A DNA stretch of 64,000 nucleotides from Cytobacillus oceanisediminis 2691 (GTDB lineage Bacteria > Bacillota > Bacilli > Bacillales > Cytobacillaceae), in the NCBI RefSeq assembly GCF_007678455.1, contig NZ_VEEP01000013.1, positions 1 through 64,000 on the forward strand, in the 5' to 3' direction. The notes under the pieces were generated by a model. The model saw only the letters and a list, made by a program, of their open reading frames with translations. It searched no databases and was not told the origin of the DNA. Made by a program: the position numbers and the translations under genes. Position 1 is the stretch's first letter, and each line of letters starts with the position of its first letter. Shown here piece by piece: positions 44,744 to 47,881 of this stretch.

Positions 44744-44765
44744 AACGTCAACCTCGTTGACAAAA
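44744..44765. promoter_or_regulatory. MarR-type operator O3 ahead of the CarD-like gene
   Basis: GTCAA-CCTCG-TTGAC is an inverted repeat with the same 5-nt spacer as O1 and O2. Its right half includes the -35 box TTGACA of the carD promoter (44757-44762). Confidence 0.75.
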
Positions 44766-44785
44766 CTAATTATAAGTGTTATTAT
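44757..44785 (+). promoter_or_regulatory. Sigma-A promoter of the CarD-like gene
   Basis: A perfect -35 TTGACA (44757-44762), a 17-nt spacer, and -10 TATTAT (44780-44785). Operators O3 and O4 cover the two boxes, so bound regulator should block it. Confidence 0.85.
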
Positions 44786-44802
44786 AAACTTGGTTGACAA
44801 TT
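44780..44802. promoter_or_regulatory. MarR-type operator O4 (imperfect) ahead of the CarD-like gene
   Basis: The right half TTGACAATT is perfect, the spacer is CTTGG, and the left half TATTATAAA matches the consensus at 6 of 9 positions. It overlaps the -10 box. Confidence 0.6.
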
Positions 44803-44820
44803 TTATGTAGGGGTGAGCAA

Positions 44821-45336
44821 ATGTTTAGTATAGGAGATATGGTGATCTATTCAGCACATGGCATTTGTAAAATTGATGATATCTGTGAAAAAACAGTGTT
44901 AGGTGTGACAAGACCGTACTATGTATTACACCCAATGAATGACAATCATCAATTGACTCTAAGTGTTCCAGTTCATAGTGATAAAGTAGCCCTTCATGAA
45001 ATGGTCCAAAAAGAAGATGCCCGGGAGATTCTTGATTCCTTTAGGTATGCAGGAATTGACTGGAATGACAAACCCAATATACGACATAATTTATATTCTA
45101 AAGTTGTAAGCAACGGAGACAGAATCGAGATTGCAGGACTCATCAATACCCTCATGCGAAAAAAAATCGAAGCCGAGCAGAATGAAAAAAAGCTTTACGA
45201 ACAGGACAGAAAAATATTGGATACTATACAAAGCATCCTTTTCAAAGAAATAGCCATTGCTCTGGATACCACTGTTGAAAGAATACATGAGCATGTCACA
45301 GGGCTATTGAAGGAAAGTAATCAGGTAGTTAACTAA
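44821..45336 (+). CDS. CarD-like (CdnL/TRCF-RID) transcription regulator
   Basis: This 171-aa protein has an N-terminal RNA-polymerase-interacting domain (about 1-60, MFSIGDMVIYSAHGICKIDDI...YYVLHP) and a helical C-terminal domain (about 75-171), the layout of CarD/CdnL and of B. subtilis YdeB. CarD proteins bind the RNA polymerase beta subunit and affect open-complex stability. The ATG at 44821 follows TAGGGGTGAGC. It converges on the gyrB paralogue and shares its operators, so it belongs to the same small regulon. A direct functional tie to gyrase is inference. Confidence 0.88.
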   Translation: MFSIGDMVIYSAHGICKIDDICEKTVLGVTRPYYVLHPMNDNHQLTLSVPVHSDKVALHEMVQKEDAREILDSFRYAGIDWNDKPNIRHNLYSKVVSNGDRIEIAGLINTLMRKKIEAEQNEKKLYEQDRKILDTIQSILFKEIAIALDTTVERIHEHVTGLLKESNQVVN

Positions 45337-45337
45337 G

Positions 45338-45388
45338 GGACGGTCTTATGCTTCCAAAAGGAAGCATAAGATTCGTTCCATTTTTTAT
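45338..45388. terminator. Bidirectional terminator between the CarD-like and gyrB genes
   Basis: A perfect 12-bp stem TCTTATGCTTCC / GGAAGCATAAGA closes on an AAAA loop and is followed by a T-run on the plus strand. It serves both convergent genes. Confidence 0.85.
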
Positions 45389-47304
45389 ACATCCAGATTC
45401 CTTACATATACAGCATTTTCCTCAATAAATTGGCGTCGGGGTTCAACCTTATCCCCCATCAATAAGTCACATACCTCATCGGCCTCCCTGGCATCATCCA
45501 ATGTGACTTGAAGCAACGTCCTAGTTTCCGGGTTCATGGTCGTTTCCCATAATTGTTCCGGGTTCATTTCTCCCAGTCCCTTGTACCGCTGCAAATTCGG
45601 TTTTGGTGTGCCTGGCAGTGACGCCAATGTGCTTTCCAGTTCAGCATCATTGTAAGCGTACTGTATATTCTTCCCCTGCTGGATTTTATATAATGGAGGC
45701 TGGGCAATATAGATATAGCCCTTTTCCAGTACAGTTCTCATAAATCGATAGAAAAATGTCAGCATGAGGATTCGGATATGCGCTCCGTCCACGTCTGCAT
45801 CAGTCATGATGACAATTTTATGGTACCGTGCCTTTGAGATATCAAAGTTTTCCCCAATTCCTCCGCCGATTGCTTTGATCATTGTCCCAATTTCGGCATT
45901 TTGGAATATCCGGTCCATCGCGGCTTTTTCAACGTTCAGGATTTTCCCCCTGAGTGGCAGGACAGCCTGGAAATGGCGGTCACGTCCTCCCTTTGCAGAC
46001 CCGCCAGCAGAGTTTCCTTCCACAATGTACAATTCACTAATGGATGGATCTTTGGAAGTACAGTCTGCAAGCTTACCCGGAAGTGTTGAAATTTCCAAAG
46101 CGCTTTTTCTTCTCGTCAATTCACGCGCCCGCTTGGCAGCAATTCTCGCTTTTGAAGCAAGTGAACATTTCTCGGCGATTCTTTTTGCGATTGCAGGATT
46201 CTCCAGCAAAAACAGTTCAAGCCTCTCTGAAAAGATTGTATCGGTTGCTGATTTCACTTCAGAGTTGCCAAGTTTTGTTTTGGTTTGTCCTTCGAATTGC
46301 GGGTCTGGGTGCTTAACCGAAATGACAGCAGTCAGCCCTTCCCTGACGTCCTCCCCGGAAAAATTAGCTTCATTCTCTTTTAAGTTTCCGTTTTTCCTTG
46401 CGTACTCGTTCATCGTTCGGGTTAAAGCTGTTTTGAATCCCACTTCATGGGTTCCACCTTCATGTGTATGAATATTATTGGCGAATGAATATAGCATCTC
46501 CGCATACCCTTCGTTATACTGAAGGGCAATTTCCAAGGATATCCCTTTATGTTCACCTTCTATAAAAATCGGTTCATGAATTACGGTCTGCTTTTCATTT
46601 AAATGCTCAACATAAGACCTAATTCCACCCTCATAGTAATATTCATTCTTTCGCTGTTCACCGCGCTTATCAGAAATCGTGATCATAATCCCCTTATTCA
46701 GGAAAGCCAGCTCACGAAGTCTTGATGAGAGAATGTCATAATCATACTCAAGCGTTTCTGTAAAAATTTCACCATCCGGTACAAAGTGAATGGTAGTGCC
46801 GGTATGGTTTGTTTCCCCTACTGTTTGTAATTCCCCTTGAGGGACTCCGCGGACAAAACTCTGGTAATGGATCTTTCCCTCCCGGTGGACATATACCTCG
46901 AGTAATGAAGATAAGGCATTGACGACAGATGCCCCGACACCGTGCAATCCCCCAGATACTTTATACCCGCCTCCGCCGAATTTGCCGCCAGCATGGAGTA
47001 CGGTCAAAATGACTTCGACGGCCGGTTTTCCTTCCTTCTCATGAATTCCAACCGGGATACCCCGGCCATTATCCGTAACCGTAATACTATTATCTTCTTC
47101 AATCGTGACGTGGATCTCATCACAATATCCTGCAAGGGCTTCATCCACGCTATTATCCACAATCTCCCAGACCAGATGATGCAATCCCCTCCCGGATGTT
47201 GAGCCAATGTACATTCCGGGCCGCTTCCGGACAGCTTCAAGCCCTTCCAATACCTGTATCTGATTGGCGTCATACGCCTGCTCTTGAACTCCTGCTTGTG
47301 TCAT
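45385..47304 (-). CDS. gyrB: DNA gyrase subunit B paralogue
   Basis: This 639-aa protein is a complete GyrB: GHKL ATPase ([60 protein letters not shown]), transducer with [20 protein letters not shown] ([30 protein letters not shown]) and tail [21 protein letters not shown]. It resembles B. subtilis GyrB through its whole length but is not next to gyrA, recF or dnaA. Residue 431 is Asn in EGNSAGG, where GyrB normally has Asp (EGDSAGG, E. coli D426), and the next segment is AKGGRD instead of AKQGRD. The residues known to contact aminocoumarins (Asp and Arg in the ATP pocket, the Arg in VHREGK, the Thr in HTGTT) are kept. It needs GyrA from elsewhere. Operator O1 overlaps its promoter. Confidence 0.93.
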
Positions 47305-47330
47305 GCAAATGTAATCCCCTTCACGTTCCC

Positions 47331-47360
47331 TATATCGTACATAATAGGATGAATTGTCAA
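47331..47360 (-). promoter_or_regulatory. Probable promoter of the gyrB paralogue
   Basis: On the minus strand TTGACA (47360-47355) is followed after 18 nt by GATATA (47336-47331). The -35 box is one half of operator O1, so repressor binding would block it. Confidence 0.6.
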
Positions 47361-47374
47361 TAAAGTTGACAATT
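47352..47374. promoter_or_regulatory. MarR-type operator O1 ahead of the gyrB paralogue
   Basis: AATTGTCAA-TAAAG-TTGACAATT is a perfect 9-5-9 inverted repeat in the 127-bp gap between marR and gyrB. Confidence 0.85.
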
Positions 47375-47385
47375 AAAGTGTATTA

Positions 47386-47428
47386 AAAAACCCTCTTATT
47401 GTCAACTTGATTGACAATAAGAGGGTTG
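47386..47428 (-). terminator. marR terminator that contains operator O2
   Basis: CCCTCTTATTGTCAA-cttga-TTGACAATAAGAGGG is a perfect 15-5-15 inverted repeat (47391-47425). On the minus strand it is followed by TTTTTTAAT, so it works as the marR terminator. Its inner 25 bp (47396-47420) are also a full copy of the operator. Confidence 0.85.
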
Positions 47429-47431
47429 CTT

Positions 47432-47881
47432 TTAATCATCCAGATTCCAATCCATCTTCAAAATTTCTTTAAGGAGCCTCACTTGCTCAGCTCCGATTTT
47501 TTCTGTTATTTTCTTTTCCAGGCCAGCCTTGAGCATTTCATTTTTTTCATAGCATTCTTCACCAAGAGTGGTTAGCCTTATCCATTTTTCCTTTTTGTTA
47601 TTTTCCAGGTTGTTGACTTCGACTAATCCTTTTTCAGCAAGGTTTTTGATGAATTTATGTATGGCCTGACGGGAAATTTCAACATTTTTATTAATATAAG
47701 AAATGGTTGGCTGCTTTTTATAAATCCTCGCCATGATATACCATTCAGAATTTGAAATATAAATATCACTCTGGTTGTTCCAGGCTTTCTCTGAGATTTT
47801 ACGAAGAAGCGTATGACGCTCACTCAATAGATCAACCAGGTCTAAATTTACTAATTCAGAGTTTACACTCAATGGACTCAC
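47432..47881 (-). CDS. MarR family transcriptional regulator
   Basis: This 149-aa protein has the winged-helix layout of MarR: SNSEWYIMARIYKKQPTISYINKNVEISRQAIHKFIKNLAEKGLVEVNNLENNKKEKWIRLTTLG. It starts at a GTG with AAAGGG upstream. It lies directly upstream of the gyrB paralogue on the same strand, with four matching palindromes around it. MarR proteins are usually repressors released by small aromatic ligands. I infer that it represses gyrB, the CarD-like gene and perhaps itself. Confidence 0.88.
   Translation of the reverse strand: MSPLSVNSELVNLDLVDLLSERHTLLRKISEKAWNNQSDIYISNSEWYIMARIYKKQPTISYINKNVEISRQAIHKFIKNLAEKGLVEVNNLENNKKEKWIRLTTLGEECYEKNEMLKAGLEKKITEKIGAEQVRLLKEILKMDWNLDD

Follow-up and report, generated by a model that had tools for sequence, protein, structure and literature searches.

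A palindromic operator shared by a second gyrase B gene and carD beside a MarR-type regulator in Cytobacillus oceanisediminis 2691

MarR-type regulators control efflux pumps, and the gyrB-R gene of Streptomyces (S. niveus/S. sphaeroides), a drug-resistant spare target, is inducible by novobiocin. According to the available parts of the sources, a duplicated gyrB provides self-resistance in S. niveus (PMC7795190), a stand-alone extra gyrB lies away from the origin in Nocardia brasiliensis (PMC3670865), and a CarD-family gene, cdnL (BC4714), is induced by stress in Bacillus cereus (PMC4746229). Here, a MarR-type regulator gene (marR), a second gyrB (gyrB2), and a carD/cdnL gene were analyzed in a 64,000-nucleotide stretch (the window; positions 1 to 64,000 of NZ_VEEP01000013.1, handled as contig C44) of Cytobacillus oceanisediminis 2691, whose 4.9 Mb genome is assembled in 477 contigs. 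Palindromic operators were located on the promoters of carD and gyrB2 and at their counterparts in relatives, and the regulon itself is regarded as near certain. Its composition suggests an inducible defense against gyrase poisons with gyrB2 probably silenced otherwise. No account of a MarR-CarD or MarR-gyrB regulon was found in the open-licence literature, in agreement with the preliminary description of this DNA, which knew of no MarR-gyrB-CarD module.

Genes, operators, and promoters of the locus

The three genes were as follows (aa, amino acids):

47432..47881, minus strand: marR, open reading frame (ORF) for a 149-aa MarR-type regulator with a GTG start
45385..47304, minus strand: gyrB2, 639-aa second B subunit of DNA gyrase, with Asn431 at the position of E. 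coli Asp426
44821..45336, plus strand: carD/cdnL, 171-aa CarD-family RNA polymerase-binding protein

The convergent carD (plus strand) and gyrB2 (minus strand) had 2483 bp between their starts, in keeping with the 2.5 kb first given. The window gyrB is a true second gyrB, as had been proposed, scoring above the cut-off of TIGR01059 gyrB (1015.9 vs. 882.4 bits) and under that of parE_Gpos (858.5 vs. 899.95 bits), with a complete set of ATPase, transducer, TOPRIM, and C-terminal domains (PF02518, PF00204, PF01751, and PF00986) and identities of 76% to the housekeeping GyrB, encoded on a different contig, and 59% to parE, which is located elsewhere. A single gyrA and a single parC were identified in the genome, the sole GyrA having HPHGDSAVYD in its quinolone resistance-determining region (QRDR-A). 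CarD was over the cut-offs for PF02559 (RID, RNA polymerase-interacting; 50.9 bits) and PF21095 (CarD C-terminal; 33 bits) and was the only stand-alone CarD found in the genome, the other PF02559 match sitting in an Mfd-like frame of 1194 aa. The MarR protein exceeded the Pfam cut-off for PF13463 HTH_27 (27 vs. 22.2 bits) and fell under the gathering score for PF01047 MarR (22.6 vs. 24.6 bits). A profile from 34 orthologues, among which the recognition-helix segment ISRQAxHKF was nearly invariant, matched MarR chains of the PDB with E values of 1.8e-7 or weaker. The AlphaFold model of the window protein (pLDDT 91.6) ordered the helices and wing as in the MarR topology and was matched by Foldseek to E. 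coli MarR 1jgs (template modeling scores 0.72/0.77) as well as to MepR and others, with only 14-23% identity to the best 50 PDB chains.

Four operators were placed in the window:

47352..47374, center 47363: O1, just past the -10 box of gyrB2; exact 23-mer match; 27.3 bits
47397..47419, center 47408: O2, 45 bp from O1; 2 mismatches to the 23-mer; 32.1 bits
44743..44765, center 44754: O3, on the carD -35 box; 2 core mismatches; 19.5 bits
44780..44802, center 44791: O4, on the -10 box of carD and 37 bp from O3; 3 mismatches; 24.9 bits

The 23-mer AATTGTCAA-N5-TTGACAATT, searched with up to 3 mismatches, would be expected 0.13 times in the window. All four sites had been described as copies of it, which held for O1 and, with its 2 mismatches, O2, whereas it was overstated for O4 and more so for O3, which was absent from the matches at this threshold. 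The bit scores come from a 25-bp weight matrix trained, with the window excluded, on 38 sites (≤1 mismatch to the 14-base core TTGTCAA-N5-TTGACAA) from 49 loci of MarR homologues (767,551 bases), where it found 102 sites at ≥10 bits, training sites included, against 1 in the reversed sequences. By this measure O3 and O4 are weaker than O1/O2 yet well above background, the best score in 40 simulated windows (2.56 Mb) being 16.0 bits. The fifth-best window site, at 56126, was rejected as a fifth operator with 11.6 bits, within the chance range; a dual-specificity-phosphatase-like ORF (56195, plus strand) follows this operator-like stretch (56114-56138) at a distance of 69 bp. According to the matrix, the conserved palindrome is longer than first described, TTGTCAACYNRGTTGACAA, so that the 5-nt spacer noted earlier has a symmetry of its own. 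The refined palindrome had 7 genomic matches at ≤2 mismatches, four of them O1-O4, with 4 in the backwards control as well. The genome search proposed in the preliminary description returned the exact core only at O1 and O2 and one more site with 1 mismatch; its 88 sites at ≤2 mismatches, against 45 in the backwards control, are mostly noise.

The operators overlapped the following elements:

44757..44785, plus strand: carD promoter, TTGACA 44757-44762, 17-bp spacer, TATTAT 44780-44785
47377..47405, minus strand: gyrB2 promoter, TTGACA 47405-47400, 17-bp spacer, TACACT 47382-47377
47389..47427, minus strand: marR terminator, hairpin with 17-bp arms containing O2, then a minus-strand T run

As first placed, O3 and O4 lie on the carD promoter, with the -35 hexamer TTGACA within the right arm of O3 and the -10 hexamer TATTAT at the left end of O4. 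O2 had been assigned to the marR terminator and does form the upper stem of that hairpin (RNA fold -27.8 kcal/mol, z -8.1), but it is not merely there, also carrying the gyrB2 -35 box (47400-47405, minus strand) within its right arm on that strand. The marR terminator, an operator, and the gyrB2 promoter form one element, a compact design in which terminator, operator, and -35 box overlap within 39 bp. A repressor on O2/O1 would cover the gyrB2 -35 box and start site, and the sites are read as repressive because of this position on promoters.

The same geometry recurred in relatives. With promoter candidates confined to those near an operator, 10/10 gyrB2 upstream regions had TTGACA in the distal operator, a TANANT-like -10 hexamer, and then the proximal operator, with a promoter spacer of 17 bp (18 bp in G097). 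The distal operator folded as a terminator hairpin (-21 to -29 kcal/mol) in the 7 of 9 gyrB2 regions with marR directly upstream, and formed no such hairpin in the two without it (-12.9 and -9.0 kcal/mol). For carD, a promoter defined as a -35-like hexamer in the operator with a -10-like hexamer 16-18 bp later was found in 45/48 upstream regions, with the -35 inside the operator in 45/45.

Operator conservation and co-occurrence with MarR

Relatives of the MarR protein were found in Bacillales, with titles including Neobacillus, Cytobacillus, Planococcus, and Paenibacillus and some clear mislabelling, e.g., "Chryseobacterium sp. ISL-80" (MarR 93% identical). Sites of ≥14 bits within 400 bp upstream of genes were tallied at 59 loci (the window, 49 named-contig loci, and 9 others), leaving out LmrB matches of <45% identity and matches covering less than half of the query. 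A site preceded 46/46 intact carD genes (45/45 distinct ones, since L014 and L104 are one contig, the only overlap found among the 59 loci), a count without the broken carD of L062, which had no site of ≥12 bits, and the partial one of L043. Sites also preceded 9/9 gyrB2, 14/18 genes for LmrB-like exporters, 26/59 marR, 3/6 TetR genes, and 4/6 genes for a small 88-100-aa protein; of the four exporter genes lacking a site, those of L020 and L026 are preceded by a TetR gene with its own site. At the housekeeping gyrB loci L105-L108 and the parE locus L109 no site of ≥10 bits was present. Operator centers at carD were usually 37 bp apart, as for O3-O4, and 39-47 bp in other lineages, with some single-site promoters, and those of gyrB2 were in tandem 45-46 bp apart in 9/9 upstream regions, or 10/10 including a tenth gyrB2 (G026) that was found through its operator. 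The small regulon inferred at first was borne out by these counts and by the co-occurrence below: the MarR-carD pair with operators recurs across Bacillales, with at least ten operator-bearing gyrB2 genes in four genera. With the operator described this precisely, members of the regulon can be listed for any genome.

Among 193 genomes of the host family, the MarR protein (E ≤ 1e-20) was present in 62 and the palindrome (≤1 mismatch) in 70. The palindrome occurred in 52/62 genomes with MarR vs. 18/131 without (Fisher P 1.4e-21, odds ratio 33; the genomes being related, P is a guide only), and the backwards control in 23/62 vs. 35/131 (P 0.10, odds ratio 1.6). The 62 include two proteins only 40% identical and a few that are partial or contain stops. 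Because operator and MarR co-occur across genomes, we infer that MarR is the binder and repressor. That the palindromes are instead bound by another protein (TetR or CarD), or are mere promoter and terminator sequence with MarR as a bystander, is very improbable: each half-site does contain the -35 hexamer TTGACA, O2 lies in a terminator, a TetR gene stands in 6/59 loci, and the 18 genomes without detected MarR match the pattern, but both arms are conserved, the pattern follows MarR far beyond its control, again with the caution that the genomes are related, and 26/59 marR genes have a site upstream.

The most constant partner was carD, intact in 46/59 loci and always with sites. Together with the binding of CarD-family proteins to RNA polymerase beta, given in the accessible text of PMC4746229, this would suit an RNA polymerase inhibitor as the signal, with CarD as the defense and GyrB2 as a side gene. 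This reading is judged improbable, as it leaves the altered TOPRIM residues of GyrB2 (see below) unexplained, and inspection of the ORF lists by eye, without a dedicated search, brought up no polymerase paralogue or rifamycin-type enzyme. The commonest partners besides carD were LmrB-like exporters, three of which scored 518.5, 485.1, and 462.5 bits against the NCBIfam LmrB model, under its cut-off of 800, and all passed the DHA2 efflux model TIGR00711.

Several further observations were made around these loci. The small 88-100-aa protein has the motif EPED(F/Y)(F/Y)YLKGFE and is often found behind an operator or beside marR; the L056 copy had no Pfam or NCBIfam match. Copies are located at:

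L056 8673-8975
L096 5658-5924
L097 8084-8350

Strong sites distant from marR in G101 and G126 (L185 2967, 25.6 bits; L186 3051, 28.5 bits) may mark further regulon members; the two intergenic regions resemble each other and have an ORF of 142-150 aa close by. At L021 (7234-10786), a locus lacking carD, a convergent pair of ABC exporter genes comes after marR, and the one tested matched multidrug/lipid ABC exporter models. An ORF of the window at 38186-39448 (minus strand) reads as FtsZ and stands outside any division gene cluster.

Descent and drug-site residues of GyrB2

A third gyrB/parE match that was GyrB2 was identified in 9/193 family genomes (G000, G004, G006, G039, G042, G044, G091, G096, and G097), and the G026 copy was missed by this route, such that the total of ten, spread over genera g1, g3, g8, and g16, is a lower bound. 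Third copies in G036 and G123 were set aside as unrelated (63% and 51% identical). An order-wide search of 397 genomes, 16 of them of the host family, gave a third match only in G000 and G006, again a lower bound. In g1, g8, and G097, marR and gyrB2 are codirectional with carD convergent, while G091 and G096 have divergent carD and marR with a small ORF between marR and a convergent gyrB2; in G026, gyrB2 lies near marR and a fragmented LmrB-like gene on a short contig without carD.

In a tree from which eight near-duplicate housekeeping rows had been removed beforehand, the GyrB2 proteins formed one clade with 100/100 support apart from the GyrB of their hosts, to which G026 was added in a later comparison. 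This rules out a recent duplication of the host gyrB, and GyrB2 is, as the tree has it, one old clade. Its placement as sister to the GyrB of genus g90, from another family, received weak support (80/59), and a FastTree analysis with residues 405-500 removed drew it next to ParE beside the g90 group. Ratios of nonsynonymous to synonymous substitution rates (dN/dS) in four GyrB2 pairs were 0.029, 0.067, 0.049, and 0.053, and because of this purifying selection GyrB2 appears to have been kept as a working protein.

In an alignment with E. coli GyrB (6rks chain B), Asn431 of GyrB2 falls on residue 426. Asn occupied this position in 9/9 intact GyrB2 and the G006 fragment, compared to Asp in 38 other housekeeping GyrB. 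Eight fixed differences separated GyrB2 from these 38, four of which (431, 463, 473, and 477) fell within residues 424-478, a clustering in 55 of 639 residues with P 0.0027 for a segment picked after inspection; position 431 separates the sets partly by construction, as seven Asn rows were grouped apart. ParE had been dropped before this comparison. The E. coli D426N substitution raises the minimum inhibitory concentration (MIC) of nalidixic acid 64-fold (PMC6830822, available part), and in the accessible portion of PMC4686662, QPT-1 contacts Asp437 of S. aureus GyrB and D437N raises the MIC of QPT-1 from 0.5 to 4 and that of a novel bacterial topoisomerase inhibitor (NBTI) from 0.016 to 0.125 ug/ml. 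To judge from the alignment, GyrB2 is a second copy of a drug target with a resistance-type residue, which lends indirect support to a gyrase poison as the ligand, as first suggested; an aromatic compound is possible.

An aminocoumarin was considered first because Streptomyces has gyrB duplicates. It was lowered as a ligand since nine ATP/aminocoumarin-site residues of the window GyrB2 are identical to E. coli while the fixed differences cluster in QRDR-B. The unchanged pocket also speaks against a role of gyrB2 in immunity within an antibiotic cluster, for which the duplicated gyrB of the novobiocin producer S. niveus offers a precedent (PMC7795190, as far as its text was available). Judged by eye, the window ORFs read as housekeeping with nothing like a biosynthetic cluster, and such producer self-resistance is scarcely credible.

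A proposed switch and its relation to known systems

In the proposed mechanism, MarR dimers on the TTGTCAACYNRGTTGACAA palindromes O3/O4 and O2/O1 would block RNA polymerase at carD and gyrB2 until MarR is freed by a small-molecule ligand. The ligand is most likely a naturally occurring compound that poisons cleavage complexes of gyrase and resembles quinolones, QPT-1, or the like. GyrB2, with Asn for the drug-touching Asp, would then pair with the single housekeeping GyrA into a drug-insensitive gyrase, and CarD, by stabilizing open promoters, could allow transcription to start on under-supercoiled DNA. The LmrB-like DHA2 exporters of relatives would be driven by this switch as well. A probability of about 0.5 is assigned to this reading, in which MarR senses a gyrase-cleavage poison and releases resistant GyrB2 and CarD, with the exporters in relatives.

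Several observations weigh against it. Of eight g90 genomes examined, seven (L149-L152, L154, L159, and L164) also have Asn here, together with the neighboring Gly473, in the single GyrB that they possess (with a neighboring EIGT-type motif in those listed). This genus demonstrates that a GyrB with Asn is able to act as sole gyrase B, and the Asn of GyrB2 may be inherited or ancestral rather than selected. In the available part of PMC4686662, S. aureus D437N leaves the moxifloxacin MIC at 0.063 ug/ml and changes that of etoposide just 2-fold, from 64 to 128 ug/ml. The majority of genomes with MarR lack gyrB2 (at least 10/62 have it), the gyrB2 frame is broken near codon 56 in G006, of the same species as the window (L103 7002-8917), and a decayed module at L029 (8001-8663) retains marR, an operator of 26.9 bits, and 27 codons of gyrB2. 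The operator had been thought common to marR as well, but none lies upstream of the window marR, as opposed to 26 of the 59 marR genes tallied. Ten loci with LmrB-like genes of this genome showed no strong site (one of 10.6 bits), the nearest of these genes, at 40% identity, having no operator. Finally, no papers joining CarD with gyrase or supercoiling were found in the open-licence literature.

Some of these points suit the same regulon with another signal, a phenolic, membrane-active, or other toxic compound exported by the LmrB-like pump, in which case GyrB2 and CarD would adjust supercoiling and promoter opening under such stress and Asn426 would come from the GyrB2 ancestor. The frequency of LmrB-like partners, the Asn426 of g90 housekeeping GyrB, and the many MarR proteins with small aromatic acids as ligands (salicylic, benzoic, and indole acids appear in the PDB titles) are in its favor, as is the finding that B. 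cereus cdnL is induced by several stresses and in spores damaged by heat (PMC4746229, accessible part). It leaves unexplained the recruitment and retention in four genera of a GyrB2 with changes clustered in the QRDR, and is considered possible but unlikely.

The gyrase-poison reading may be extended, more tentatively, to a Bacillales-wide regulon in which MarR is the poison sensor for three layers, GyrB swap, CarD, and efflux, and which would represent an ancient, pre-clinical, inducible resistance of the D426N type. If true, the locus would be a natural, switchable form of a GyrB change known elsewhere from resistance mutations, and one implication would be that soil Bacillales meet gyrase-cleavage poisons in their environment. 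CarD of Bacillales gains a predicted specific repressor and a testable physiological setting, the loss of gyrase activity, and the natural quinolone and QPT-1 susceptibility of genus g90 is of interest given the Asn in its sole GyrB.

Compared with described systems, the locus resembles Streptomyces gyrB-R in its predicted role as a spare target, but there the resistance is to aminocoumarins and in the producer, whereas here the change lies in TOPRIM/QRDR-B and is accompanied by a MarR operator. The extra gyrB of N. brasiliensis likewise stands alone, although no regulator is described for it in the available part of PMC3670865. B. cereus CdnL is the nearest parallel for carD, with no MarR operator described in the accessible text, where BC5038, a MarR gene, appears in the same induction table as cdnL (PMC4746229). 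With E. coli MarR and S. aureus MepR the regulator shares the fold, the helix-wing DNA-binding design, palindromic operators at promoters, and exporter targets, the latter in its relatives, but it differs in its low identity to the best PDB chains and in its targets, among them a subunit of gyrase and a protein that binds RNA polymerase.

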